From contig NZ_JAEHFY010000009.1 of the NCBI RefSeq assembly GCF_016623585.1, positions 1 to 64,000 of the forward strand: a stretch of 64,000 bases of DNA. Direction: 5' to 3'. How positions within the stretch are numbered: position 1 is the stretch's first letter; every line of letters starts with the position of its first letter. Source of the DNA: Pedobacter segetis. Lineage in GTDB: Bacteria > Bacteroidota > Bacteroidia > Sphingobacteriales > Sphingobacteriaceae. The translations under genes and the position numbers were made by a program. Below the pieces are notes generated by a model. The model made no database searches, was not told the origin of the DNA, and saw nothing but the letters and a program-made list of their open reading frames with translations. Positions 27,560 through 43,181 of the stretch are shown here, piece after piece.

Positions 27560-28618
27560 TTAAATATTCTTGGCCAACCAATCGCCAACTGCGTTGGTTC
27601 CGTAAGCTTTGTTTTTTCCTGATAAATCTTCAGTTACAATTCCATCAGCCAAAGATTTGTTGACCACTTCGCGAATTGCATCCGCTTCTGCTTGTAGGCC
27701 AAAAGCATCTTCTAACATCATTGCCGCTGATAAAACTGTTGCCAATGGATTCGCAATATCTTTTCCTGCTGCTTGCGGGTAAGAACCATGGATTGGTTCA
27801 TATAAAGAGGTATGTAAACCTTTAGAAGCAGAGGGCATCAAGCCCATAGAACCTGAAATTACGGAAGCCTCATCAGTTAAAATATCTCCAAATAGGTTTT
27901 CGGTAATCAATACATCATAAGAATTTGGCCATTGCACCAAACGCATGGCTACGGCATCAACAAATTCATAAGCAACGGTTACTTCTGGATAATCCTTTTC
28001 CATATCTTGTACGGTTTCACGCCATAAACGGGAACTTTCCAACACATTGGCTTTATCCACACAGCATAATCTCTTGCTACGTGTCATGGCCAATTCAAAA
28101 CCTAATTTAGCCAAACGCTGAATTTCTGCCCGGGTATAAGTACAGGTATCAAAAGCGGTATTTCCATCGTCTTTTCTACCTCTTTCACCAAAATAGATGC
28201 CTCCTGTTAATTCACGTAAAATGATTAAATCTGTACCTTCTATCCTTTCTCTTTTTAATGGAGAGTTATCGATTAAAGAGGGGAAAGTAAAAGTAGGCCG
28301 AACGTTGGCAAATAAGCCCAGCTTCTGGCGCATCTTCAATAATCCTTGTTCAGGTCTTACTTTTGCCTTTGGGTCGTTATCATATTTTGGGTGACCGATG
28401 GCTCCAAAAAGTACCGCATCTGCAGCTAAGCAAACTTCATGGGTACTATCCGGATAAGGTTCGCCGCAATCATCAATGGCGCAAGCACCAGTTAATGCCG
28501 AAGTCCAGTTGATTTCATGTTTATATTTTACCGCAATGGCATCACAAACTTTAACCGCTTGTGCAATTACTTCTGGTCCAATTCCGTCTCCTGCAAGCAG
28601 GGCAATGTTTAGTTTCAT
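27560..28618 (-). CDS. leuB: 3-Isopropylmalate dehydrogenase
   Basis: Oxidatively decarboxylates 3-isopropylmalate for leucine; the same enzyme can act on 3-methylmalate in the citramalate route to isoleucine. At 352 residues it shows LLAGDGIGPEV near 7-17, the substrate helix RPEQGLLKMRQKLGLFANVRP in parts (RPEQGLLKMR, GLFANVRP), LRELTGGIYFG near 134-144, and the metal site VTENLFGDILTDE-like ITENLFGDILTDEAS. It is the last gene of the minus-strand ilv/leu run and is followed by a terminator. Confidence 0.96.
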   Translation of the reverse strand: MKLNIALLAGDGIGPEVIAQAVKVCDAIAVKYKHEINWTSALTGACAIDDCGEPYPDSTHEVCLAADAVLFGAIGHPKYDNDPKAKVRPEQGLLKMRQKLGLFANVRPTFTFPSLIDNSPLKRERIEGTDLIILRELTGGIYFGERGRKDDGNTAFDTCTYTRAEIQRLAKLGFELAMTRSKRLCCVDKANVLESSRLWRETVQDMEKDYPEVTVAYEFVDAVAMRLVQWPNSYDVLITENLFGDILTDEASVISGSMGLMPSASKGLHTSLYEPIHGSYPQAAGKDIANPLATVLSAAMMLEDAFGLQAEADAIREVVNKSLADGIVTEDLSGKNKAYGTNAVGDWLAKNI

Positions 28619-28675: not shown

Positions 28676-30280
28676 TTAAATTTTTATTTTATCGTTATAT
28701 AATTGTCTTACTTCTTGATTCTGCGAGGCATCTTGCTTCTCTACTCTTAATTCTTGGCTCTTACTCTCCATAATATTCAGCATCTTCTCAGTAGCTTTAA
28801 TGGCGCAAACGGTTTGGTCAGAATCTAAACCACGGGTGGTAAAAGTTTTTTCCTCTGTTTTCCATGTAATTATTGTTTCGCACAAAGCATCAGAACTACT
28901 TCCTGGCGCAATGTGAACCACATAATCAATTAAAGCGGGAAGTGTTTTACCTTGCGATTTGTATAAGGAGCTTAATGCCAGCATAAAAGCATCAAACTGT
29001 CCATCGCCTTGGGCGTGTTCCTCAAATATTTCTCCATTGATTTTGATGGCGATGGTGGCAGAAGGGCGTAAACCTTTTGAATGGGACAGCACATAAGATT
29101 CTACCTTTATTTTGTCTTGATAGGCATGGCTGGCCAAAACATCAGAAATGATATACGGTAAATCGTCCTGCGTTACCGTTTCTTTCAAATCGCCCAATTC
29201 GATCACCCGTTGGGTAACTTTCTTGAGGTCTGCATCATTCAGCTTTAAGCCCAATTCCTGTAAATTCTTTTCGATGTTAGCTTTGCCAGATGTTTTCCCC
29301 AAGGCATAAGTACGCTTTCTTCCGAAACGCTCGGGCAATAAATCGTTAAAATAAAGATTCTTCTTATTGTCGCCATCTGCATGTATGCCGGCAGTTTGCG
29401 TAAACACGTTTTCTCCAACAATAGGTTTATTTGCAGGGATGCGAACGCCAGAAAAAGTCTCTACCAATTTGCTCACCTTATAAATAGAAGATTCTTTTAA
29501 TCCAATTTCTACATCAGGCAAAAAATCATTGATAACGGCAATTACGCTAGCCATCGGGGCATTTCCCGCTCTTTCTCCCATGCCGTTCACGGTTAAATGC
29601 AGGCCATCAACGCCTGCTTTTACGGCCTCTAAAGCATTTGCGGTTCCTAAATCATAATCGTTATGGGCATGAAAATCGAAATGCGTATTTGGATATTTAG
29701 CCTTGATGTCTTTTAAGAAAATGTATGTTTCATCAGGGGTTAAAACACCCAAGGTATCTGGCAACAAAATCCTTTCTATGGGCTGGGTAACTAAAAAATC
29801 GAGGTATTGAAAAACATAGGATGGCGAGTTGCGCATCCCGTTGCTCCAATCTTCTAAATAAACATTGGTTTTGATACCCTTTTTAACCGCCAATTCAATA
29901 ACATTACTGATTTCATCAAAATGCTGCTCTGGGGATTTCTTTAATTGATGTTTTAAATGATTGAGCGAGCCTTTTGTCAGTAAATTTTGAACCTTCACGC
30001 CAGCCCGTAGCATCCAATCAATAGAAACTCCATGGTCCACAAAAGTCAAAACTTCAACTTTTTCTAGATAGCCGCTTTTTGCTGCCCATTTACTTACGGC
30101 CTTCACGGCTTCTAGCTCGCCTTCAGATACTCTTGCCGAAGCAATCTCTATCCGATCAACTTTTAACTCTTCAAGCAACAACTGAGAAATGGTTTTTTTC
30201 TCAGAAACAGAAAATGAAACACCCGAGGTTTGTTCGCCATCCCTTAGCGTTGTATCCATAATTTCTATTTTCCTTTTCAT
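28676..30280 (-). CDS. cimA: (R)-Citramalate synthase, LeuA-like
   Basis: Condenses pyruvate with acetyl-CoA to citramalate, the first step of threonine-independent isoleucine synthesis. The 534-residue protein has an HMGL-like TIM barrel ([17 protein letters not shown], metal site FHAHNDYDLG) and a C-terminal LeuA regulatory dimer domain. Segments such as RIEIASARVSEGELE, NLLTKGSLNHL, VYLEDWSNGMRNSP and LPERFGRKRTYALGK recall the Leptospira CimA type rather than LeuA. A separate, typical leuA lies 2.6 kb upstream. No ilvA is in the cluster. The C-terminus has a glutamine/serine-rich extension. The assignment rests on remembered similarity. Confidence 0.8.
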   Translation of the reverse strand: MKRKIEIMDTTLRDGEQTSGVSFSVSEKKTISQLLLEELKVDRIEIASARVSEGELEAVKAVSKWAAKSGYLEKVEVLTFVDHGVSIDWMLRAGVKVQNLLTKGSLNHLKHQLKKSPEQHFDEISNVIELAVKKGIKTNVYLEDWSNGMRNSPSYVFQYLDFLVTQPIERILLPDTLGVLTPDETYIFLKDIKAKYPNTHFDFHAHNDYDLGTANALEAVKAGVDGLHLTVNGMGERAGNAPMASVIAVINDFLPDVEIGLKESSIYKVSKLVETFSGVRIPANKPIVGENVFTQTAGIHADGDNKKNLYFNDLLPERFGRKRTYALGKTSGKANIEKNLQELGLKLNDADLKKVTQRVIELGDLKETVTQDDLPYIISDVLASHAYQDKIKVESYVLSHSKGLRPSATIAIKINGEIFEEHAQGDGQFDAFMLALSSLYKSQGKTLPALIDYVVHIAPGSSSDALCETIITWKTEEKTFTTRGLDSDQTVCAIKATEKMLNIMESKSQELRVEKQDASQNQEVRQLYNDKIKI

Positions 30281-30303: not shown

Positions 30304-30900
30304 TTAAATCGGAAGTTGCGCCGCAAATTCCTGTATTTCTGATTTCATGTTCTGCAGATAATCAATATCGTCAAAACCGTTCATCATATTGTCTTTTTTA
30401 TACGAGCTAATGTCAAAACTTTCTTTTTCACCAGTGGCCAAAAGGGTAATGGTTTGTGCCTTTAAATCTATTTCAATTTCCGTTTCAGGGTTTTTATGAA
30501 CCTCGGTAAAGATATTCTCTAAAAAAGCAGGACTGATCTGTACCGGCAAAACCCCGATATTTAAGCAATTCCCTCTAAATATATCAGCAAAGAAACTAGA
30601 AACCACGGCTCTAAAACCGTAATCATAAATTGCCCAGGCAGCATGTTCCCTTGATGAACCTGAACCAAAGTTTTTACCTCCCAAAAGGATTTTACCTTTA
30701 TAGGTTGGGTTGTTCAATACAAAATCGGTTTTAGGAGTACCGTCCGTATTGTATCTCCAATCTCTAAATAAATTATCTCCAAAACCTACACGTTCCGTTG
30801 CTTTTAAGAAACGGGCTGGGATGATCTGGTCGGTATCCACATTCTCGATAGGAAGTGGAACCGCTGTACTTTTTAATATTGTAAATTTATCGTATGCCAT
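30304..30900 (-). CDS. leuD: 3-Isopropylmalate dehydratase small subunit
   Basis: Swivel-domain partner of LeuC for isomerising 2- to 3-isopropylmalate, and citramalate to methylmalate. At 198 residues it contains NVDTDQIIPARFLK near residues 20-33, LLGGKNFGSGSSREHAAWA in the substrate-recognition loop, and the FADIFRGNCLNIGVLP segment. Standard length. It lies between leuC and the citramalate synthase-like gene on the same strand. Confidence 0.96.
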   Translation of the reverse strand: MAYDKFTILKSTAVPLPIENVDTDQIIPARFLKATERVGFGDNLFRDWRYNTDGTPKTDFVLNNPTYKGKILLGGKNFGSGSSREHAAWAIYDYGFRAVVSSFFADIFRGNCLNIGVLPVQISPAFLENIFTEVHKNPETEIEIDLKAQTITLLATGEKESFDISSYKKDNMMNGFDDIDYLQNMKSEIQEFAAQLPI

Positions 30901-30995: not shown

Positions 30996-32396
30996 TTAAA
31001 GTAATTCCCTCGGATCGGTTACTTTTCCGGTAACTGCTGCAGCTGCTGCCACAAGCGGGCTTGCCAATAAAGTTCTTGAACCTGGACCTTGTCTTCCTTC
31101 AAAGTTTCTGTTAGAGGTGCTCACCGCATATTTACCAGCAGGGATTTTATCATCATTCATGGCCAAACAAGCAGAACAGCCCGGCTGGCGCAACACAAAA
31201 CCTGCCTCCGTAAAAATATCCAATAAACCTTCTTCCTTAATTTTTGCTTCAACAATGTGTGAACCCGGTACCAACCATGCAGTTACATTATCCGCTTTTT
31301 TACGACCTTTTACAATAGATGCAAAAGCCCTAAAATCTTCAATCCTTCCGTTGGTACAACTGCCTATGAACACATAGTCAATCGGTTTGCCAATCATATG
31401 GTCACCCTCATGGAAACCCATGTAGTTTAAGGATTTTTCATAAGTGCTTACGCCACCCTCTACAGAACCTGCATCAGGGATATCTTTAGAAATTCCTATT
31501 CCCATTCCCGGGTTGGTACCATAGGTAATCATTGGCTCAATCAGCGAACCATCAAAAGTATATTCCTTATCAAAAACTGCATCATCATCGGTTTTTAAAG
31601 TTTTATAATAAGCTAAAGCTTTATCCCAAGCCTCCCCGTCAGCTGACGGGGAAAATTCCCTTCCTTTTACATAATTGATGGTGGTCTCATCCGGGGCAAT
31701 CATCCCGCCACGGGCACCCATCTCGATAGACAAATTACAAACCGTCATACGGCCTTCCATCGTCATCTCTTCAAAAACTTTTCCTGCATATTCAACAAAA
31801 TAACCCGTGGCACCAGAAGTTGTCAGTTGGGAAATAATGAACAAAGCCACATCTTTCGGCGTAACACCATAACCCAAAGAACCAGTAATATTGATCCTCA
31901 TTTTTTGTGGTTTAGGTTGCATGATACATTGGGTAGCCAAAACCATCTCCACTTCAGATGTCCCTATACCAAAAGCAATTGCCCCGAAAGCTCCGTGGGT
32001 AGAAGTGTGCGAATCGCCACAAACAATGGTTGCGCCCGGTTGTGTAATTCCGTACTCTGGCCCTACTACATGCACAATTCCGTTTTTTTGATGCCCCAAT
32101 CCCCAGTGCGAAATGCCGTATTCGTTACTGTTGCTCTCCAAAGCTTTCAACTGGTTTGCAGAAAGCGGGTCTTCAACCGGTAAGTGCTGGTTGATTGTTG
32201 GGGTATTATGATCTGCCGTTGCGAAGGTACGCTCTGGATATAAAACCTTGATTCCACGACTTTTCAATCCCAAAAATGCCACCGGACTGGTTACTTCGTG
32301 TATCAAATGACGATCGATAAAAAGCACATCTGGCCCTCCTTCAATCTTGCGGACTACATGGCCGTCCCACACCTTGTCAAATAATGTTTTGCTCAT
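30996..32396 (-). CDS. leuC: 3-Isopropylmalate dehydratase large subunit
   Basis: Aconitase-family subunit with the 4Fe-4S cluster. In 466 residues it shows [26 protein letters not shown] near 27-41, [19 protein letters not shown] near 129-147, and the cluster cysteines in FIGSCTNGR and [12 protein letters not shown]. Length and motif order are those of bacterial LeuC. It acts with LeuD, probably on both isopropylmalate and citramalate here. Upstream lies a block of tandem repeats. Confidence 0.97.
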
Positions 32397-32435
32397 CTTA
32401 TTTTGTTTTTATTCTTTTCTGTCATTAACGGATAA

Positions 32436-32517
32436 TCCGAGGATTATCCCTACATGATAACATAATTGTTTAATTTTTTTTGGCGTTTTAACACTCCGCC
32501 AGCTAGCGGGGAACGCC
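32436..32517. repeat. Palindromic repeats upstream of leuC
   Basis: An 8-bp hairpin, ggataatc / gattatcc, lies near 32430-32450. Near 32479-32510 lies ggcgttttaacactccgcc, the same module as in the composite repeats at 25.9 and 39.9 kb. Confidence 0.6.
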
Positions 32518-32539
32518 CTAATCATTATATTTCTTTCAA

Positions 32540-32890
32540 TCCTTTCGGTCATGCCGAACTCGTTTTGGCATCTTATTATATTATTAAGCTTTATTTATGA
32601 GATGCTGAAATAAATTCAGCATGACAAAACCTTATATAAACTTGTTCTCCTTACCCACATCCTTTCAATCATGCCGAACTCGTTTCGGCATCTTATTATA
32701 TTATTGAGCCTTATTTATGAGATGCTGAAATAAATTCAGCATGACAAAACCTTATATAAACTTGTTCTCCTTAACCACATCCTTTCGGTCATTTCGAACT
32801 CGTTTCAGCATCTTATTATATTATTGAGCCTTATTTATGAGGTGCTGAAATAAATTCATCATGACAAAAACTTATATAAACTTGTTTACC
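32540..32890. repeat. Three tandem copies of a 120-bp unit overlapping the leuA 3' end
   Basis: Units start at 32540, 32660 and 32780 (period exactly 120). Each holds two palindromes, atgccgaactcgttttggcat-type and gatgctgaaataaattcagc, followed by cttatataaacttgtt. The last element of unit 3 is the real 3' end of leuA (codons for Asn-Lys-Phe-Ile and stop). Thus the other two units carry copied leuA ends. Units 1 and 2 are nearly identical; unit 3 is more divergent. Confidence 0.9.
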
Positions 32891-34380
32891 GCATCCAGAT
32901 AAGCATTGGCCGATGCCTGCACAATATCCGTACTGAAACCGTACCCGTTATAATTCTTATCTAGATATTTGATCCTCATGTTCACTTTGCTCACATCGTC
33001 GCTTCCGCCTTCAATGGCATCAATATGGAATGCTTTGATACAAATTTCTTTTTCTAAAATAGAGTTGATGGCTTTAATGGTGGCATCAACCGGGCCATTA
33101 CCTGATGATGTTGCCTCGAACATTTTGCCGTTAATATCCAATTTGATAATTGATGTTGGGATCAATGGATCGCCGCACATTACCTGCAATAACTTAACGG
33201 TTACGCCTGCTTTGTAATTGCGCTCTGTGCCATCGCTCATCAAAGATAATAAGTCATCGTCTTTTATTTCTTTTTTAGAATCGGCAATAGCTAAAAAGCG
33301 TTCGTAAACATCGTCTAAATTGATTTTTTCTGACACGTAACCCAATCTTTCTAAATGGTGTTTTAAGGCATGCCGCCCGCTTCTGGCCGTTAAAATAATC
33401 TCAGATTGGTCTATTCCTACATCTTCTGGATTGATGATTTCATAGTTTTCACGATGCTTTAAAACCCCATCTTGGTGGATGCCCGAACTGTGCGCAAATG
33501 CGTTTTTACCCACAATGGCTTTGTTTGGCTGCACTGGCATACGCATCATGCGGCTTACCATTCCGCTCAATTCATAAAAATGTTTGGAGTTGATCTGGGT
33601 GTGCTTATTTAAGGCTTGATGGGTTTTTAAGATCATTGCCACTTCCTCCAAAGATGTATTTCCTGCTCTTTCCCCAATTCCGTTAATGGTACATTCTGCC
33701 TGCCTTGCACCGTTTTGGATACCTGCTATGGTATTTGCTGTTGCCAAACCTAAATCGTTATGGCAATGAACAGAGATAATGGCTTTATCGATATTGGGAA
33801 CGTGATCCATTAAATATTTGATTTTTGCCCCATATTGATCTGGCAAGCAGTAACCGTTTGTATCTGGGATATTTACCACGGTTGCACCCGCAGCGATAAC
33901 GGCCTCAACCATTTGCGCTAAAAAAGCATTATCTGCCCGTCCGGCATCTTCTGCGTAAAACTCTATATCCTCAACAAATTTCTTCGCATATTTTACGGCA
34001 TCAACGCCACGTTGTAAAATATCCTCACGGGTACTGTTAAATTTGTATTTGATGTGCATATCTGATGAGCCGATACCAGTATGGATACGCGGTCTTTTGG
34101 CGTATTTTAAAGAATCAACAGCAACATCGATATCCTTTTTATTGGCCCTGGTTAAAGCGCAAATGATAGGTTGTTTTATTGCTTTTGAAAGTTCTACCAC
34201 GCTGTTAAAATCTCCGGGGCTTGATACCGGAAAACCCGCCTCAAGGACATCAACACCCAAAGTTTCCAGTCGCAAAGCGATTTCTATCTTTTCAGAAGTG
34301 GTCAATTGGCAACCTGGCACTTGTTCGCCATCACGTAAGGTAGTGTCGAAAATGTAAATTCTATTTGGGTCGTGTAACAT
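32872..34380 (-). CDS. leuA: 2-Isopropylmalate synthase
   Basis: First committed enzyme of leucine synthesis, joining acetyl-CoA and 2-ketoisovalerate. It has 502 residues: an HMGL-like barrel ([16 protein letters not shown] near 10-25, [11 protein letters not shown], metal motif [14 protein letters not shown]), a linker with [10 protein letters not shown], and a C-terminal allosteric dimer domain (residues about 385-502) expected to bind leucine. The codons for its last four residues lie in the neighbouring 120-bp repeat. It starts the leu half of the operon. Confidence 0.96.
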
Positions 34381-34446: not shown

Positions 34447-35937
34447 TTATAATACCAATTCAAAGTGCTCTTGCACTTTTTCTTTTTTAATCTCTTCTAT
34501 CAATTTAACTTTGCCTTCTTCCAAAAAGATCCTTTTTTCTAAGCAAGAAGGAAGCTGCGATTCATAATGGCCAACATAAATCACTGTTATTCCGTTGGTG
34601 CACAGCTCATCAATTAATTGATTAAAATATTGTGTTTGTTGATGATCTAAACCTTGGCAAGGTTCGTCTAAAATCAATAATTCTGGATTTTTGATGATAG
34701 TCCTGGCCAATAAAACCAAGCGCTGTTTCCCCAAAGGCAGCGTGTTAAATAGATCGTTCTTGTTTTCGGTTAAGCCAAAAAATTTGATCAATTCATCAAC
34801 TTCAATGGTTTTAGAATAGGGTAAGGTTTTAAATAAACCCAAAGAATCATATAAGCCCGAAGCGATACTTCCCCAAACGGTAGAGTTATTATCAAAATAC
34901 CAATGAAATTCTGGCGATATCAAACCTATATGCTGTTTAATGTCCCAAATGCTTTCGCCGCTTCCCCGTCTGTTGCCAAATAGATAGATTTTATTGGCAT
35001 AAGATTGTGGATGATCGCCGTTAATCAAACTCAATAATGTTGATTTACCAGAACCGTTTGGGCCTTGCAATAACCATTTTTCGCCTGCTTTTACTTCCCA
35101 ATCGATATTCTTCAATACTTGCTTTTCGCCATAGCTGATATTTACATCAACCATTTTGGCGATCAACTCTGACGAATATTTTGGTGCTTCTCTTAAAAAC
35201 CTTGGAATTTCGCCCAAGCTTCCATTTGGCAAAGCCGATATTTTAAAAGCTTCATTTGCGATAGCCAATCTCCCATCTTTTATTTCTGCAAAGCGGTTGA
35301 TGCAAGAAGGCAATGCTTGGTCATTTGATATTAAAACCAACTGAACGCCACCAGTTGCTGCATCATCCAATAGAATGTTTAGGTTTTCACGAGAGGCCGA
35401 ATCCAAACCTGTATAGGGCTGGTCGATGATCAAGAATTGAGGTTTTAGCCATAAAGCCTTTACCAATTGCAATTTCTTGTGTTCCCCGCTTGATAATTGG
35501 ATCAACTGTGAATTTTTTAACCGCTCAAAACCTAAAGCGATCAAAATGGGTTCAGCATCGGCGAAAGCCAAATGATTTTCTTTGCCAAAATACATTAATT
35601 CAGCATTTACGGTTAAAGTCTCCTTAGCCTGCTGACTGGTGTATCTTTGTTGGTAATAGAAGTTGGCAACACCTTCCAGATTTTTGAATTGATACCAACT
35701 ATCCACTAATAATACCTTTGCGGGTAGTTTACTTTTATCATCAAAATTGATTAAAATTTCTCCCGAATATTCTAACAAACCAGCAATTGCTTTGGCTAAA
35801 GAAGTTTTTCCGCTTCCGCTTGCACCATATAAAACCCATTGCTCTCCGTTTTGGATAGCCCAGCTCAAATCATCAAACACCAAATTGCTTTGGTATTTGA
35901 GATTTAAATTTTGGATATGAACAATAGATTTTTTCAT
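34447..35937 (-). CDS. ModF-like tandem ABC ATPase without a permease
   Basis: A 496-residue protein with two ABC ATPase domains and no membrane segment. Domain 1 (about 1-230) has Walker A GASGSGKTSLAKA, signature LSSGEHKKL and Walker B FLIIDQPYTG. Domain 2 (about 255-490) has GPNGSGKSTLLS, a degenerate signature LPLGKQRLVLL and Walker B LLILDEPCQG. The layout matches ModF/PhrA of molybdate loci, but no molybdate transporter is near. It sits between ilvC and leuA in the branched-chain amino-acid run, so a soluble regulatory or translation-linked ATPase role is as likely as transport. Confidence 0.82.
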   Translation of the reverse strand: MKKSIVHIQNLNLKYQSNLVFDDLSWAIQNGEQWVLYGASGSGKTSLAKAIAGLLEYSGEILINFDDKSKLPAKVLLVDSWYQFKNLEGVANFYYQQRYTSQQAKETLTVNAELMYFGKENHLAFADAEPILIALGFERLKNSQLIQLSSGEHKKLQLVKALWLKPQFLIIDQPYTGLDSASRENLNILLDDAATGGVQLVLISNDQALPSCINRFAEIKDGRLAIANEAFKISALPNGSLGEIPRFLREAPKYSSELIAKMVDVNISYGEKQVLKNIDWEVKAGEKWLLQGPNGSGKSTLLSLINGDHPQSYANKIYLFGNRRGSGESIWDIKQHIGLISPEFHWYFDNNSTVWGSIASGLYDSLGLFKTLPYSKTIEVDELIKFFGLTENKNDLFNTLPLGKQRLVLLARTIIKNPELLILDEPCQGLDHQQTQYFNQLIDELCTNGITVIYVGHYESQLPSCLEKRIFLEEGKVKLIEEIKKEKVQEHFELVL

Positions 35938-35949
35938 TTTATTATTTAT

Positions 35950-36003
35950 TTGTCAGGCTGAGCGGAGTCGAAGCCTACATTTCGACTCCGCTCAATGTGA
36001 CAA
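35950..36003. repeat. Palindromic dispersed repeat after ilvC
   Basis: Two inverted 23-nt arms (35950-35972 and 35981-36003) pair over 20 of 23 positions, with core tgagcggagtcgaa and an 8-nt loop. The stop of ilvC is 5 bases away. It could act as a stabilising 3' hairpin for the upstream mRNA segment. Confidence 0.85.
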
Positions 36004-36007
36004 TCTC

Positions 36008-37489
36008 CTAAGCCGTTTTAATCGCTTTCATGGCCGTCATCGCCCTACGCAAAACTGCCCCTACTTTTTCTACCTGGTGCGTACGGATTGTCTCGTTCAC
36101 TTCAATCAGTTTTTTATTGTCCACGCCGCCATCTTTGCCTTCATTAAAGTTTTTGCCTACTAAATCGGTGCCTACTTTCTTCATGAAATCTTTTAACAGA
36201 GGTTTACAAGCCTGGTCAAATAAATAGCAACCATATTCTGCCGTATCAGAAATCACACGGTTCATTTCGAATAATTTTTTACGGGCAATGGTGTTGGCAA
36301 TCAATGGGGTTTCATGTAAAGACTCATAATAAGCAGATTCTGGTTTGATGCCTGCCTGTACCATAGTTTCAAAAGCCAGCTCCACACCTGCTCTTACAAA
36401 AGCTACCATCAAAGTATAATTGTCGAAATACTCCTGCTCGTTGATTTTTACATCGCCGGCCGGGGTTTTTTCAAAAGCGGTTTCTCCGGTTTCCGCTCTC
36501 CATTTTAATAGGTTTTTATCTCCGTTTGCCCAGTCTTCCATCATGGTCTTGCTAAATTCTCCGCTCATGATATCATCTTGATGCTTTTGGAAAAGCGGAC
36601 GCATGATGTTTTTTAATTCTTCTGAAATTTCAAAAGCTTTGATCTTTGCAGGATTGCTCAATCTATCCATCATGGCAGTAATACCACCTTGTTTTAAGGC
36701 TTCGGTAATTACTTCCACACCATATTGAACCAGTTTTGAAGCATAACCGGCATCAATCCCTTTCTCCATCATTTTATCGAAAGATAGGATAGAGCCCGTT
36801 TGCAATAAACCGCAAAGAATGGTTTGCTCGCCCATTAAGTCTGATTTTACTTCTGCTACAAAAGAAGACAATAAAACACCCGCTTTATGCCCACCTGTAC
36901 CCACGGCATAAGCTTTTGCTTGCGCTAATCCTTTTCCTTGTGGGTCGTTCTCTGGGTGAACGGCAATTAATGTTGGTACTCCAAAACCTCTTACATATTC
37001 TGCCCTTACTTCACTTCCCGGGCATTTTGGGGCTACCATAATCACGGTAATATCCTTACGGATTTGCATCCCTTCTTCTACGATATTGAAACCATGAGAG
37101 TAAGAAAGTGTAGCTCCTTGTTTCATCAAAGGCATTACCGCTTTTACAACAGCGGTATGTTGTTTATCTGGGGTTAAGTTGATCAAAATATCTGCAGAAG
37201 GGATCAATTCTTCATAGGTACCTACCTTAAAATTGTTTTCTGTGGCGTTTTTCCAAGAATCTCTTTTCCCATCGATTGCCTCTTTACGTAAAGTGTAGCT
37301 CACGTCCAATCCGCTATCACGTAAGTTTAAACCTTGGTTTAAGCCTTGCGCACCGCAACCTATAATGACCAATTTTTTGCCTTTTAAAGCATCTACGCCA
37401 TCGGCAAATTCGCTGCTATCCATAAATTCGCAAACACCCAATTGGTTTAATTTTTCTCTTAATGGTAATGTGTTGAAATAATTTGACAT
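36008..37489 (-). CDS. ilvC: Ketol-acid reductoisomerase (class II)
   Basis: Mg- and NADPH-dependent isomeroreductase for valine and isoleucine. At 493 residues it is the long class II form, with a duplicated knotted domain as in Escherichia coli, not the roughly 330-residue class I. The Rossmann motif [17 protein letters not shown] lies near residues 44-60, with [16 protein letters not shown] in the cofactor loop, [15 protein letters not shown] near 152-166, and later active-site acidic residues in [13 protein letters not shown]. It lies between ilvN and the ATPase gene. Confidence 0.97.
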
Positions 37490-37535: not shown

Positions 37536-38138
37536 TTACATGGTAAAAACTTTTTGCCCTTTGTTCAAATACTCGTTCTCCACTACATCTTCTCCTGGTT
37601 CCAATCTTTCAAATTCACGAAGCTTTGCGTGGAAACCATCGCTATCTTTAATAATGGCTACTCTGGCACTCCTTACAAATTCAATAAGGCCGTATTGCTG
37701 CAATACATTTACCAAGGCATCTGTTTCTTCACGGTGGCCAGTTGTTTCAAAAACAGTATAATCTTTACGGATCACAACCGCTCTTGCGCCATATTCGCGA
37801 AGCAAACGTTCTACGCTCACATGTTCTGCAATCACATCTGTTGGTACTTTATAAAGTGCCAATTCTTGCCAAATCACATCATCATTGGTATTAAAATAAA
37901 CTTTTAAAACCTCCACTTGCTTCTCTAGCTGGCGGGCAACTTTTTTTACTACCTCCTCGGTTTCTGTTATCACGATATTGAAGCGGTGGATACTTTCTAC
38001 CTCAGAAGGGGAAGTATTTAAACTCTCCACATTCAGCTTTCTCCTGCTAAAGATAATGGCGATTCTATTTAATAAACCAATCTGGTTTTCGGTATAAACC
38101 GTGATGTTAAATTCCTTCTTTTCTATTGTTGATTCCAT
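37536..38138 (-). CDS. ilvN: Acetolactate synthase regulatory subunit
   Basis: Small ACT-domain subunit that confers valine feedback control on the catalytic subunit. Its 200 residues contain an N-terminal ACT domain ([20 protein letters not shown] near residues 10-29 and [19 protein letters not shown]) and the C-terminal ALS_ss domain with [14 protein letters not shown]. It follows ilvB by 19 bases on the same strand and precedes ilvC by 46. Confidence 0.94.
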
Positions 38139-38157: not shown

Positions 38158-39900
38158 TTATTTTAATCTGATTTCACTTACGCTACAACCTTGCGGCACC
38201 ATCGGGAAAACATTATTTTCTTTGGTTACCATCACTTCTAAAAGATAGGATCCTTTATGGTTGAGCATTGTTTTTAATGCTTCTACCAAGTTTTCCCTTT
38301 CAGAAACTTTTTGCCCTTCAATGTAATATCCCTTGGCAACGGCAACAAAATCTGGGCTGGTAATGTCCACAAAAGAATACCTTCTTTCGTTAAATAATTC
38401 TTGCCACTGGCGCACCATGCCCAAAAACTGGTTGTTCAAGATCATGATTTTCACATCGATACCGCTTTGCATAATGGTGCCCAATTCTTGGATGGTCATT
38501 TGGAAACCACCATCGCCAATTACAGCAACAACGGTTTTATTTGGCGCACCAAATTTGGCACCAATTGCTGCCGGAAGGGCAAAGCCCATGGTACCTAAAC
38601 CGCCACTGGTAATGTTACTTCTGGTATGGTTAAATTTCGCATATCGGCAAGCCACCATCTGGTGCTGCCCAACATCTGTAACGATAATCGCATCGCCATT
38701 GGTTAGGGTGTTTAATTGGTTGATGACCTCGCCCATGGTTAATTCTCCACTTGTTGGGTTACATTCTGCATTAATTACTTGGTCAATTTCTTTTTGGGTG
38801 TATTCTCTAAATCTCGCCAACCATTCGTTATGTGATTTTTCATCTATCAATGCCGTCAAAAGTGGTAAGGTCTCCTTGCAATCTCCCCAAACAGGAACGG
38901 TAGCTTTTACGTTTTTATCAATTTCGGCAGGATCGATATCCAAATGGATCACCTTTGCCTGTTTAGCATATTTGTCTAATCTGCCGGTTACGCGGTCGTC
39001 AAAACGCATTCCAATGGCAATCAGCACATCACAATCGTTGGTTAAAACATTTGGGCCATAATTGCCATGCATACCCAACATCCCAACATTTAGAGGATGA
39101 TCGGTTGGGATTGCGCCAACCCCTAAAATAGTCCATGCAGCTGGGATACCCGATTTTTCTACAAATGCCTTAAACTCTTGCTCTGCATTTCCCAAAAGCA
39201 CCCCTTGCCCAAAAAGTATAAAAGGTTTTTTGGCACTGTTGATCAAGGCTGCAGCTTGCTCCACATAAGATTGGCGAACAATTGGGTAAGGGCGGTAGCT
39301 TCTAATGTGTCCACATTTCTGATAAGCTTCCGTCTCTATTTTTTGTATCTGCGCATTTTTGGTAATATCAATCAAAACAGGGCCCGGCCTGCCAGATTTA
39401 GCGATATAGAATGCCTTTGCCAAAACTTCTGGTATTTCAGAAGCATCCGTTACCTGGTAATTCCATTTGGTTACAGGCGTAGTGATATTGATCACATCTG
39501 TTTCTTGGAAAGCATCGGTGCCTAAAAGTGAGGCGAAAACTTGCCCAGTAATGCACACCAATGGTGTACTATCAATCTGTGCATCGGCAATTCCGGTAAT
39601 TAAATTGGTTGCCCCTGGGCCACTGGTTGCAAAAACAACCCCAACTTTACCTGATGTACGGGCATAACCTTGGGCAGCATGGGTTGCACCTTGCTCATGG
39701 CGTACCAAAATATGGTTCAGCTCTTTTTTGAAATCATAAAGCGCATCATAAATTGGCATAATGGCACCTCCGGGATAACCGAAAATGGTGTCCACACCTT
39801 CTTCAATCAGTCCTTTTAATAAGATTTGAGAACCTGATAGTTCCTCGGTTTTAACTGATCCTTGTGCTTGTTTATCTTTTAATTCAAGTGTATCCATCAC
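38158..39900 (-). CDS. ilvB: Acetolactate synthase catalytic subunit
   Basis: ThDP enzyme that forms acetolactate or acetohydroxybutyrate. It has 580 residues in three domains: PYR domain (GYPGGAIMPIYDAL, catalytic glutamate in HEQGATHAAQGYA), a central FAD domain (MGMRFDDRVTGRL), and the PP domain (GDGGFQMTIQELGT, then NNQFLGMVRQWQELF). The N-terminus is extended with charged residues, common in Bacteroidota. A 288-base gap with dispersed repeats separates it from ilvD. Confidence 0.97.
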   Translation of the reverse strand: MMDTLELKDKQAQGSVKTEELSGSQILLKGLIEEGVDTIFGYPGGAIMPIYDALYDFKKELNHILVRHEQGATHAAQGYARTSGKVGVVFATSGPGATNLITGIADAQIDSTPLVCITGQVFASLLGTDAFQETDVINITTPVTKWNYQVTDASEIPEVLAKAFYIAKSGRPGPVLIDITKNAQIQKIETEAYQKCGHIRSYRPYPIVRQSYVEQAAALINSAKKPFILFGQGVLLGNAEQEFKAFVEKSGIPAAWTILGVGAIPTDHPLNVGMLGMHGNYGPNVLTNDCDVLIAIGMRFDDRVTGRLDKYAKQAKVIHLDIDPAEIDKNVKATVPVWGDCKETLPLLTALIDEKSHNEWLARFREYTQKEIDQVINAECNPTSGELTMGEVINQLNTLTNGDAIIVTDVGQHQMVACRYAKFNHTRSNITSGGLGTMGFALPAAIGAKFGAPNKTVVAVIGDGGFQMTIQELGTIMQSGIDVKIMILNNQFLGMVRQWQELFNERRYSFVDITSPDFVAVAKGYYIEGQKVSERENLVEALKTMLNHKGSYLLEVMVTKENNVFPMVPQGCSVSEIRLK

Positions 39901-40188: not shown

Positions 40189-41868
40189 TTAATCTTCATC
40201 CGTAACACAACCCTCAGTTGCGTTTTTAACCAATTTATAATATTTATAAAGCACCCCATTTTTTACCGGTGGTTCTGGTTTTACCCAAGCTGCTCTCCTT
40301 TTTGCTATCTCATCATCGCTTACCATTAAGTTAATGGTATTGGTTATTGCGCTAATCTCAATCAAATCATTGTCTTGGATAATACCGATGTTTCCACCTT
40401 CTACGGCTTCTGGTGTAATATGCCCTACTACAAACCCATGCGTTCCGCCAGAAAAGCGTCCATCTGTGATTAATGCTACCGAAGCACCTAAACCTGCACC
40501 ATAAATAGCGGAAGTTGGTTTAAGCATTTCTGGCATTCCCGGTGCGCCCTTGGGGCCTGCATTTTTAATTACCACCACATCTCCAGCTTTAACTTTCCCT
40601 GATGATATGCCCGCGATCAGTTCAAATTCGCCATCAAAAACACGGGCCGGCCCTTTGAATGATTCTCCTTCTTTACCGCTTATTTTAGCTACCGCACCTA
40701 AGGTGGCAATATTGCCATACAACATTTGTAAATGCCCGGTTGCTTTGATCGGTTTTTCTAATGGGCGAATAATATCTTGAGCTTCAAAATCCAAGTCTTT
40801 TGCATCAGCAACGTTTTCTGCCATTGTTTTCCCGGTAACGGTGATACAATCGCCATGTAACAAACCTTTTTTCAATAAATATTTCATGATGGCAGGCATG
40901 CCCCCCATGTTGTGCACATCTTCCATCAAATATTTGCCGCTCGGTTTTAGATCTGCAATTACTGGTGTTTTATCGCTGATGTCTTGAAAATCTTTTAAAG
41001 TTAATTTCAATCCAACAGATTTTGCCATGGCAATTAAATGCAGAACAGCATTGGTAGAACCTCCCAAAACCATCACTATGATCAAAGCATTATGAAATGC
41101 TTTTTTGGTCATGATGTCTTTGGGCTTGATGTCTTTTTCCAGTAATATCTTGATGTATTTACCTGCTTCCAAGCACTCGTTTTTCTTTTCCTCGCTCAAG
41201 GCGGGATATGAAGAACTATAAGGCAAACTCATTCCCATAGCCTCGATGGCTGATGCCATCGTGTTTGCAGTGTACATCCCTCCGCATGCACCTGCACCCG
41301 GGCAAGCGTTTTCTATCACACCTTGGTAGTCTTCATCAGAAATATTGCCTGCCAGTTTTTTTCCTAAAGCTTCAAAAGCAGAAACGATATTCAGTTCTTC
41401 CCCTTTGTAATGACCGGGATGGATACTTCCGCCGTAGATCATGATGCTTGGGCGATTTAAACGACCCATTGCCATGATAGCACCCGGCATATTTTTATCG
41501 CAACCCGGCAAAGCGATAACGCCATCATAAAAATGGGCTGCACAAACCGATTCTATGGAATCTGCGATTATATCTCGAGAGACCAGAGAGTAACGCATCC
41601 CCGTGGTACCGTTGGTAAGCCCATCACTAATCCCGATGGTATTAAATGTTAAACCGACTAAATTTTGGCCCCAAACACCTTTTTTGGCGATTGCCGCCAA
41701 ATCATTAAGGTGCATATTGCAGGTATTGCCATCGTAACCCATGCTTGCAATGCCAATTTGTGCCTTTGATAGATCTTCTGTGGTTAAACCCAAGCCATAC
41801 AACATGGCCTGTGTTGCCGGTTGGGTTTTATCTTGTGTAAATGTTTTACTGTATTTATTTAATTCCAT
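40189..41868 (-). CDS. ilvD: Dihydroxy-acid dehydratase
   Basis: Iron-sulfur dehydratase forming 2-keto acids for valine and isoleucine. It has 559 residues. Cluster ligands and motifs are visible in [14 protein letters not shown] near 45-58, [18 protein letters not shown] near 117-134 and [19 protein letters not shown] near 186-204. The [11 protein letters not shown] and [15 protein letters not shown] blocks lie in the C-terminal part. The start codon abuts the ilvE stop with no gap, so the two are co-translated. Confidence 0.97.
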
Positions 41869-42756
41869 TTATATAATGACTTCAAAACTTAATTTATCTA
41901 ACACTAAACTTTTATATACCCTTTGTATGCTAGAGCCAATACTATCGGCGAAAGCCAAAGGGTATCCATGATCATCAATTGATTTTAAACCTATAATTTC
42001 TACCGCTGTTCCACAAAGAAAGGCCGCATCTGCATTTTTAAATTCATCCGTAGTAATATTTTTTTCTATCACTTCAATATCTAATTGTTCTGCAATTTGA
42101 ATTACCGTTTTACGGGTAATACCAGCCATTATATTTCCTTTTTGTGGTGTATAAAGCACTCCATCTTTCTCTATAAAAACATTTGCAGAGGTTGATTCTG
42201 CGATAAAACCGTTCATATCCAACAAGATTGCTTCATCAAAACCTCTACTTTTTGCTTCTGTGATCGCTAAAACAGAATTCAGATAGTTCCCAGTTATCTT
42301 AACATCAACCGGTGCGGCTTTTGGGTTTGTTTTTTCATAAGTAGAGATACAGGTTTTTAAAAGATCGCCACCGTAAAAACTATCCCATTCCCATGCCATC
42401 ATCAAAATATGAGATTTGGTATCGCTTACCATATCCATGCCCTCATCTGTAAATACAAAAGGCCTGATGTAGGCGTTTTGTAAATTATTTTCCTCTAATA
42501 ATTTATAGGCATCTTTAATTAAGCTTTGAGTATCCCAATTAAAAGAGATGCTGATTTTTTCACAAGATTTTTTTAGCCTTTCAAAATGCTCTTTTGCCTT
42601 AAATATCTTTGTTCCGTTACCGGTGGTGTAAGATCTTAATCCTTCAAAAGCACCATAACCATACTGCGTAGTTTGGCTTTTATAGTCCATACTGTTTTCA
42701 GCGTCGTTTTTAAACGAACCGTCAATATAAATTATGTTACTTTTTGATAATTTCAT
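41869..42756 (-). CDS. ilvE: Branched-chain amino-acid aminotransferase
   Basis: PLP enzyme that makes Ile, Leu and Val from their keto acids. Its 295 residues belong to fold type IV: YGYGAFEGLRSYTT near residues 31-44, the PLP lysine region KITGNYLNSVLAITEAKSRGFDEAILLD in pieces (KITGNYLN, EAILLD), and GFIAESTSANVFIEKDG near the cofactor. It is the first structural gene after the leader peptide and attenuator, and the first gene of the roughly 15-kb amino-acid run. Confidence 0.95.
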   Translation of the reverse strand: MKLSKSNIIYIDGSFKNDAENSMDYKSQTTQYGYGAFEGLRSYTTGNGTKIFKAKEHFERLKKSCEKISISFNWDTQSLIKDAYKLLEENNLQNAYIRPFVFTDEGMDMVSDTKSHILMMAWEWDSFYGGDLLKTCISTYEKTNPKAAPVDVKITGNYLNSVLAITEAKSRGFDEAILLDMNGFIAESTSANVFIEKDGVLYTPQKGNIMAGITRKTVIQIAEQLDIEVIEKNITTDEFKNADAAFLCGTAVEIIGLKSIDDHGYPLAFADSIGSSIQRVYKSLVLDKLSFEVII

Positions 42757-42778: not shown

Positions 42779-42808
42779 AAAAAACGCCTTCTTGTTGGGA
42801 AGGCGTTT
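42779..42808 (-). terminator. Attenuator terminator upstream of ilvE
   Basis: On the minus strand aaacgccttc and gaaggcgttt form a perfect 10-bp stem around a 7-nt loop and run into six T. It lies 18 bases after the leader-peptide stop and 23 bases before the ilvE ATG, so it can only stop transcripts entering the operon. A GGCGT in the leader's last codons could pair with ACGCC of the terminator arm as a weak antiterminator. Confidence 0.9.
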
Positions 42809-42825
42809 AGAAATTTCTTTTTATT

Positions 42826-42900
42826 TTAATTTACACACGCCACTTTCTTATTGCCAATCAGCAGTAAGCTATTAATTATGATAATTATGACGTTTTGCAT
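42826..42900 (-). CDS. Branched-chain amino-acid leader peptide
   Basis: A 24-codon open frame too short for standard gene calling. Ile occupies residues 5-9 (five in a row) and 15, Leu occupies 12-14, and Val is at 4, 20 and 23, so half of all codons are for the three end products. It ends 18 bases before a strong intrinsic terminator that precedes ilvE. Ribosome stalling at Ile, Leu or Val codons would favour readthrough, as in enterobacterial ilv leaders. A candidate promoter (TATATTTT at 42985-42992, minus strand, with TTTG at 43014-43017) is weak. The frame and hairpin are seen; regulation is inferred. Confidence 0.85.
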   Translation of the reverse strand: MQNVIIIIINSLLLIGNKKVACVN

Positions 42901-43181
42901 TTTTGATTTAATCTTAATTTTTGATATTCTCAAGATAGGGTATCGATTTGACGCATACAATACTTTCTAAAATAAATCTCAAAAAAAATATAATTTCATT
43001 TTTTTGTTAACCGCAAAATATAATTCTAAGTAATTTTCTTTGTTTAAGCTTATATTTCCAATTATTTAGACTAAACAACGATTTGGTTTTCGGTATATTC
43101 TGTTATGCTTACATAATAAACCTCGAAATTCTTCTTAAAATTCTTTGCGCAGCGAAAAAACTAAAAAAACGGTTCATAAAA
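42901..43181. other. AT-rich promoter region of the ilv operon
   Basis: No open frame of note. It holds the presumed start of the ilv transcript, but no box fits TAnnTTTG perfectly; the best candidate is TATATTTT on the minus strand near 42985-42992. The right end adjoins the atpC terminator. Confidence 0.4.

Follow-up and report, generated by a model that had tools for sequence, protein, structure and literature searches.

The 64,000-nt stretch of Pedobacter segetis DNA analysed here (the window) raises the question of whether the genes for branched-chain amino acid synthesis are preceded by a ribosome-mediated transcription attenuator. The original prediction pointed to a 24-codon frame with a run of five Ile codons, a run of three Leu codons and three Val codons, followed by a perfect 10-bp hairpin with a T run ahead of ilvE. 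Both were present as read, on the minus strand between ilvE and the atpD side, and direct reading placed the Val residues of the leader at codons 4, 20, and 23. The hairpin occupies 42808-42779 including the T run, with 10 perfect base pairs and the loop CCAACAA. Its distances needed correction: the leader stop lies 17 nt (not 18) from the hairpin, and the T run lies 22 nt (not 23) from the ilvE ATG (42756). The elements of the leader region are as follows:

42826..42900, (-), leader ORF of 24 codons, peptide MQNVIIIIINSLLLIGNKKVACVN, read from the sequence
42900-42898 and 42828-42826, (-), leader start codon (ATG) and stop codon (TAA)
42874..42888, (-), consecutive control codons Ile5-Ile9, from the sequence and a ribosome-position model
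42856..42867, (-), control codons Leu12-Leu14 (42867-42859) and then Ile15, from the sequence and the ribosome-position model
42837..42841, (-), segment 2, the antiterminator strand, GGCGT inside codons Val20-Ala21-Cys22, from pairing with segment 3 and covariation in the genus
42799..42808, (-), segment 3, the terminator 5' arm, AAACGCCTTC, from sequence, folding, and alignment
42782..42791, (-), segment 4, the terminator 3' arm, GAAGGCGTTT, from sequence, folding, and alignment
42779..42784, (-), T6 run of the intrinsic terminator, read from the sequence
42958..42960, (-), candidate -33 element (TTG) of the leader promoter, a motif common to genus members
42931..42937, (-), candidate -7 element (TATCTTG), a motif common to genus members

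The leader RNA folded better than 200 of 200 dinucleotide shuffles (z -3.1), and a genome search with a 301-base query around the leader matched only itself. The motif TTG-N20-TANNTTG, which we take to be the Bacteroidota promoter consensus, was present in 11 of 14 genus members, always with a spacing of 20 nt and 56-69 nt upstream of the leader ATG; among these 14, it was not found in L085, L086, and L098. From the candidate promoter in the window, transcription would start at ~42925.

Behind the leader, family models identified a cluster in the order ilvE, ilvD, ilvB, ilvN, ilvC, an ABC ATPase gene, leuA, leuC, leuD, a probable cimA, and leuB:

41869..42756, (-), ilvE, branched-chain aminotransferase, the first gene (NCBIfam PRK06606, E 1.9e-76, 257 bits, below the curated cut-off of 279)
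40189..41868, (-), ilvD, dihydroxy-acid dehydratase (NCBIfam TIGR00110, above cut-off)
38158..39900, (-), ilvB, acetolactate synthase large subunit (TIGR00118, above cut-off)
37536..38138, (-), ilvN, acetolactate synthase small subunit (TIGR00119, above cut-off)
36008..37489, (-), ilvC, ketol-acid reductoisomerase (PRK05225, above cut-off)
34447-35937, ABC ATPase gene inside the ilv-leu cluster (ModF-like, below cut-off)
32872..34380, (-), leuA, 2-isopropylmalate synthase (TIGR00973, above cut-off)
30996..32396, (-), leuC (TIGR00170, above cut-off)
30304..30900, (-), leuD (TIGR00171, above cut-off)
28676..30280, (-), probable cimA, citramalate synthase of the isoleucine branch (NF042433, E 1e-201, 671 bits, below the curated cut-off of 950)
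27560..28618, (-), leuB (TIGR00169, above cut-off)

The ilvE and citramalate synthase models gave strong matches, yet these fell below the curated cut-offs. The closest named ilvD was that of Pedobacter psychrophilus (94% identity). The whole ilv-leu-cimA cluster is presumably a single transcript. By eye, we also saw approximately three similar head-to-tail repeat copies around TCATGCTGAATTTATTTCAGCATCTCATAAATAA in the leuA-leuC gap (32397-32871), and, between the ABC ATPase gene and ilvC (35938-36010), a palindrome resembling a REP element, GAGCGGAGTCGAA...TTCGACTCCGCTC.

The leader is not confined to the window. Among 18 genomes of the genus searched, 14 carried a leader of 24-26 codons followed by a hairpin with a T run, and these 14 were aligned. 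Gaps inside the ORF came in threes, whereas some of those downstream of it did not. Six of the genus terminators were weak (hairpin -7.1 kcal/mol), and in four small-genome MAGs of the genus (L089-L092) no hairpin was found in the 450 nt upstream of ilvE. In a second genus of the family (g65), where a leader was defined by an ATG or GTG start and 6 or more Ile/Leu/Val among 12 codons, an upstream leader and terminator were found in 83 of 84 genomes. These counts bore out the expectation that relatives would keep both frame and terminator. A table of 80 named ilvD loci, read by eye with L029 and atp-side hairpins excluded, yielded 38 loci with leader and hairpin (a count of loci, distinct from the count of hairpins given below), one of which (L002) is a genus member. 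These 38 represented Pedobacter, Chitinophaga, Niastella, other Chitinophagaceae, Chryseobacterium, a record titled Flavobacterium, and a Cyclobacteriaceae MAG. Among the named loci scanned, no leader-terminator element was found at ilvD of Mucilaginibacter, Sphingobacterium, and Olivibacter; a search for phage relatives gave no match. From a class-level sample of 60 genomes, loci L103-L121 were scanned and only L106 was used.

An attenuator also needs an alternative to its terminator. The end of the leader (GTGGCGTGT in the window, AAGGCGTGT or AAGGCATGT in most genus members) resembles the terminator 3' arm and is able to pair with the terminator 5' arm, forming an antiterminator. Across the 14 genus members, 95.9% of the segment 2:3 cells were paired, as good a result being obtained with 1 of 500 shuffles. 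Six cells were altered on both sides, which was matched by 1 of 500 shuffles; such cells count sequences rather than events, and the independent changes are fewer. Shifting the partner by 1-3 columns reduced pairing to 28-52%. In 13 of the 14 members the decisive base of segment 3 has a pairing partner in segment 2 (AU in 7, GC in 6), compared with 6 of 14 for segment 4. Of the five covariation measures, two did not rise above shuffles: the number of pairs changed on both sides was equalled by 344 of 500 shuffles, and that of further pair types by all 500.

In 41 of 62 leaders, the 2:3 duplex energy was better than that of dinucleotide shuffles (p<0.05). This count keeps three leaders judged spurious (L029, L049, and L057) and one genome present twice (L002, L085), all four of which were removed from the codon totals below. 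The corresponding counts in g65 were 42 of 83 first leaders and 15 of 17 second leaders, and in 97 of these 100 leaders segment 2 began between -30 and +5 nt from the leader stop. Since the sequences are related, neither a Fisher combination of the duplex tests nor a Mann-Whitney p for the first-leader codon comparison was used. The competing antiterminator that RNA folding was expected to reveal is present and covaries in the genus, and it is weak in the window itself, where 2:3 pairing was the weakest of the genus (-9.0 kcal/mol, p 0.065, compared with -14 kcal/mol, p 0.005, in the closest relatives).

At equilibrium, the full-length window RNA was predicted to be nearly all terminator at any ribosome position (P(3:4) 0.98-0.997); therefore, read-through would need kinetic capture. 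A 1:2 protector hairpin was predicted in the window, with a P(2:3) of 0.32 when no ribosome was present. This protector was not general in the genus: many members had segment 3 sequestered when no ribosome was present (genus mean 0.68), and therefore a third state like that of E. coli trp would not be general either. An untranslated leader may thus be read through, unlike that of E. coli trp.

Which amino acids are sensed would depend on where a stalled ribosome leaves segment 2, a segment that we set by pairing alone, ignoring codons. In g65, the last codon of the Ile/Leu/Val run was 12-17 nt upstream of segment 2 in 70 of the 80 first leaders considered (three of the 83 had their best duplex at another place and were set aside); in 17 of 17 second leaders the distance was 10-13 nt. 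A distance of 12-17 nt is approximately that from the ribosomal A site to the leading edge. In the window model, a ribosome stalled at codons 4-16 gave a nascent antiterminator P(2:3) of 0.62-0.99. A stall at Ile5-Ile9 left segment 2 free (0.985-0.988), a stall at Leu12-Leu14 or Ile15 gave 0.62-0.81, and a ribosome at codons 18-25 covered segment 2, with a P(2:3) of 0. Val20 and Val23 lie within the masked zone, and Val4 alone is well placed. The well-placed codons of the 14 genus leaders totalled 72 Ile, 69 Leu, and 18 Val. The idea that this single leader senses all three end products was dropped for Val on the grounds of these totals and of the masking of segment 2 by a stall at Val20 or Val23; the leader would respond to Ile and Leu, and hardly to Val, for which sensing is predicted to be weak at most. 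The window holds an end-product codon run, an intrinsic terminator, a competing antiterminator, and Ile and Leu codons placed as attenuation would require, with Val20 and Val23 as the exceptions.

Other lineages differed in codon content. Well-placed codons totalled 165 Ile, 133 Val, and 49 Leu in 23 Chitinophagaceae-like leaders and 56 Ile, 26 Val, and 8 Leu in ten leaders from records titled Chryseobacterium or Flavobacterium, counts that are inflated in some leaders by a GTG or early ATG start. Since the totals vary among lineages, the sensed pair of amino acids would vary as well. A second, whole-arm model, which counts any pairing of the entire terminator 5' arm, gave stalled and finished ribosomes values that differed by over 0.3 in 12 of the 14 genus members and in 66 of the 83 first leaders of g65. 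The two genus members that fell short were the window itself, where the separation was poor (0.47 vs. 0.36), and L088, where it was reversed (0.42 vs. 0.67). Rare-codon bias in the control run of the genus showed no clear pattern: relative to the first gene, ATT was commoner and ATA rarer, and CTA plus CTG made up 33% of Leu codons compared with 15%.

Sequence and comparison establish the ORF, the terminator, the antiterminator pairing in the genus, and the spacing from codon run to segment 2; for leader translation, stalling, and read-through, we infer the following course of events. RNA polymerase would start near 42925 with a ribosome trailing on the leader ORF. If the tRNAs for both Ile and Leu are charged, this ribosome would reach the stop codon and cover segment 2, whose GGCGT lies in the last codons, and segment 3 would then pair with segment 4, forming the terminator and ending transcription before ilvE. 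When Ile or Leu is scarce, the ribosome would stall on Ile5-9, Leu12-14 or Ile15, leaving segment 2 free to capture segment 3 ahead of the synthesis of segment 4, which would allow read-through into the ilv-leu-cimA genes. Since one leader holds both codon sets, either shortage should release it (OR logic). The leader and terminator thus very probably turn on the branched-chain genes when Ile or Leu is scarce, and the locus is in all likelihood a ribosome-mediated transcription attenuator answering a shortage of charged tRNA-Ile and tRNA-Leu. For leader, terminator, and antiterminator alike, comparison supported the attenuator of the original prediction.

In the same genome, trpE is preceded by the leader MKIKINTKRWWWHNKNVASVALFVS and a hairpin with a T run, and hisG by the leader MKIKLATSHHLHHHHYGVAI:

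L102 1290-1423 and loci L234-L249 and L251, Trp-rich leader and hairpin before trpE
L101 1221-1400 and loci L258-L271, L273, and L274, His-rich leader before hisG

Within the genus, 18 of 18 strong trpE loci (17 genomes) had a hairpin and a leader in which two or more Trp codons are adjacent, the scan being confined to these strong loci and leaving out weaker PF04715 matches (L250, L252-L257, and six more). The whole-region fold of the trp leader was unremarkable (z -1.36; 19 of 200 shuffles as good). A His-containing leader preceded hisG at 17 of 18 loci, three of them in small-genome MAGs with 2-3 His only; the hisG match in L272 was unrelated. A His attenuator with an intrinsic terminator was rejected: 0 of 18 hisG loci had a terminator-like hairpin within 130 nt, and the his leader of the window genome folded no better than shuffles (z -0.53). 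By eye, many hisG loci were seen to keep GTTTTGTACGTCAAAAC, loop included, between the His-rich leader and hisG.

Short frames are plentiful in AT-rich DNA and a hairpin with a T run could by itself be any terminator, which raises the alternative of an ordinary terminator, serving the upstream atp genes or a small RNA, next to a chance ORF. As a chance control, we collected the terminator-like hairpins of the 80 named ilvD loci, both strands included, and scored each for a preceding ATG ORF with at least 9 Ile/Leu/Val per 12 codons. Such an ORF preceded 38 of the 55 hairpins lying within 380 nt upstream of ilvE or ilvD, whichever gene came first, compared with 1 of 221 terminator-like hairpins elsewhere in these loci, where several control ORFs scoring 7 or 8 were the end of a neighbouring gene, presumed to be atpC. 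Within the 64-kb window, 12 ATG ORFs precede a terminator-like hairpin; the leader scored 10 Ile/Leu/Val of 12 and the runners-up 6. Since Ile/Leu/Val-rich ORFs are so specific to the ilv position, the pairing of leader and hairpin is not due to chance. The ORF-internal gaps in threes also argue against a chance ORF, and a separate hairpin with a T run lies closer to the atpD side (43204-43178, -9.6 kcal/mol), so that an ordinary terminator beside a chance frame is very unlikely. We consider it just as improbable that the ORF encodes a functional small hydrophobic membrane protein instead of a regulatory leader. Its 12-residue Ile/Leu-rich stretch and basic tail do look like a tiny membrane segment, but the stretch is almost purely Ile/Leu/Val, its end is held at the 12-17 nt from segment 2 described above (70 of 80), its composition varies by lineage (Ile and Leu here, Ile and Val in Chitinophagaceae-like loci), and the same genome has Trp- and His-rich leaders before trpE and hisG.

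Codon-dependent stalling could instead act via Rho, ilvE translation or RNA decay rather than through the intrinsic terminator. That another mode may exist is suggested by the genus hisG leaders, all 18 of which lack a terminator-like hairpin, by the weakness of some genus terminators, and by Streptomyces, in which mutations of such codons before ilvB are reported to have had no effect (PMC1262725). Against this, a hairpin and T run follow the leader in 14 of 14 leader-bearing genus members and segments 2 and 3 covary, and we regard such a mode as unlikely here. In other phyla, ilv genes are controlled by T-box, riboswitch or protein-binding leaders. Control of that kind is extremely unlikely in the window, where an Rfam scan found no T-box, riboswitch or leader-peptide family reaching its gathering cut-off and where the best weak match was to a peptide-leader family, Phe_leader (27.1 bits vs. 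55). The seven weak Rfam matches (Phe_leader RF01859, icaR 3'UTR, GibS, and others), all below cut-off, were set aside as chance or likeness of architecture only.

With the window leader read as an Ile and Leu attenuator, a newer lead appears to lie outside the window, in the serial leaders of differing codon content found in relatives:

L140, L142-L144, L146, L147, L162-L177, L185-L187, L194, L195, L201, L203, and L233, Ile-rich second leader between ilvE and ilvD
L162-L165, L167-L170, L172-L175, L178, L183, and L186, ~190-codon gene between ilvE and ilvD

The ~190-codon gene (beginning MTEEINQ, MNQEINQ or MTNEINQ) occurs in part of g65. In that genus, a second leader and terminator lay shortly before ilvD in 30 of 84 genomes (17 from the first scan and 13 among the 26 rescanned further downstream), a count to be read with the fact that L188-L233 reach ~400 nt past ilvE and that a distant second leader could be missed there. 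The first leader is the richer of the two in Leu/Val; one locus (L140) has the second leader without a first. The 17 measured second leaders average 5.6 Ile, 1.3 Leu, and 1.1 Val. Among these related genomes, first leaders had fewer Ile codons when accompanied by a second leader (3.3, n=29) than when alone (5.0, n=54), and more Leu codons (8.7 as against 6.2), and by eye the run of the first leader contained no Ile in L142, L144, L194, L195, L201, and L203. Tandem leaders and two terminators preceded ilvE at 4 of 4 Chryseobacterium loci (L061, L075, L076, and L081), and tandem leader-terminator units were also present in L034, titled Flavobacterium sp. In family f20, tandem units preceded ilvE at 4 of 6 ilvD loci (L106, L123, L124, and L126), with a single leader each at L122 and L125; L122, L125, and L126 were judged by reading the sequence.

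One tentative reading, to which we give somewhat less than an even chance, is that modular leader attenuators run the branched-chain pathway across Bacteroidota, their codon specificity having been re-dealt between lineages. At that same strength, and taken jointly, the set would comprise a fused Ile and Leu leader (the window), an Ile and Val leader (Chitinophagaceae-like), a pair of leaders in tandem ahead of ilvE (Chryseobacterium and the like) and, for some members of the genus containing Pedobacter, one leader rich in Leu/Val ahead of ilvE and a separate Ile-rich one ahead of ilvD. If this is true, a fused leader would act as OR, serial leaders would act in an AND-like manner on ilvD and the genes downstream of it because both terminators must be passed, and the regulatory logic gate would have been rewired by relocating codon runs.

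The E. coli ilvGMEDA, ilvBN, and leu leaders are rich in branched-chain codons and combine a terminator with an alternative antiterminator ahead of an operon of the same pathway. The window leader resembles them in its codon run, terminator, antiterminator, and same-pathway operon; it differs in that one leader serves a joint ilv-leu-cimA cluster with codons for Ile and Leu, not all three, in that no Rfam leader family reaches its cut-off, and in that many of its relatives are predicted to favour the antiterminator without a ribosome. A comparative study by Vitreschak and colleagues in 2004 reportedly predicted some cases of attenuation in Bacteroidetes/Chlorobi. Among the matches listed, the one paper on this phylum to name leader-peptide attenuation upstream of amino acid operons was a transcriptome of Flavobacterium psychrophilum, which gave 'strong clues' for it (PMC9723704); this is the same idea in the same phylum, based there on transcriptome data; the passage concerned names no operon or codon, and 'ilv' is absent from the main text. 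Leader-like sORFs have also been noted in Bacteroides (PMC7366714). The original prediction knew of no published example in this group and was too generous on this point, attenuation in the phylum being not entirely absent from print (PMC9723704). Since such clues to flavobacterial attenuation are in print, the window attenuator would be a new case of a known switch. Corynebacterium and Streptomyces likewise have an Ile/Val/Leu-rich leader and terminator before ilv according to the reports concerned (PMC1262725; PMC10272879; PMC11857589), unlike the window in belonging to another phylum and having ilvB first. For the serial leaders of relatives, though not for the single leader of the window, a parallel is the tandem attenuators of Salmonella mgtCBR, in which two leader ORFs respond to separate signals; as described there, these are ATP and proline, acting additively, and not two end products of one pathway (PMC3641672). 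Among the matches listed (titles and abstract openings, with few subscription journals), none appeared to describe serial leaders that divide the branched-chain amino acids between them.

Relatives with serial leaders offer a natural setting in which to test the combined action of two consecutive attenuators, and the codon runs show how a leader can be re-tuned among Ile, Leu, and Val. In Bacteroidota, translation starts independently of the usual Shine-Dalgarno pairing. Attenuation requires a ribosome close behind RNA polymerase, and the presence in one genome of conserved ilv and trp leaders together with a His-rich his leader implies that such coupling works in Bacteroidota.
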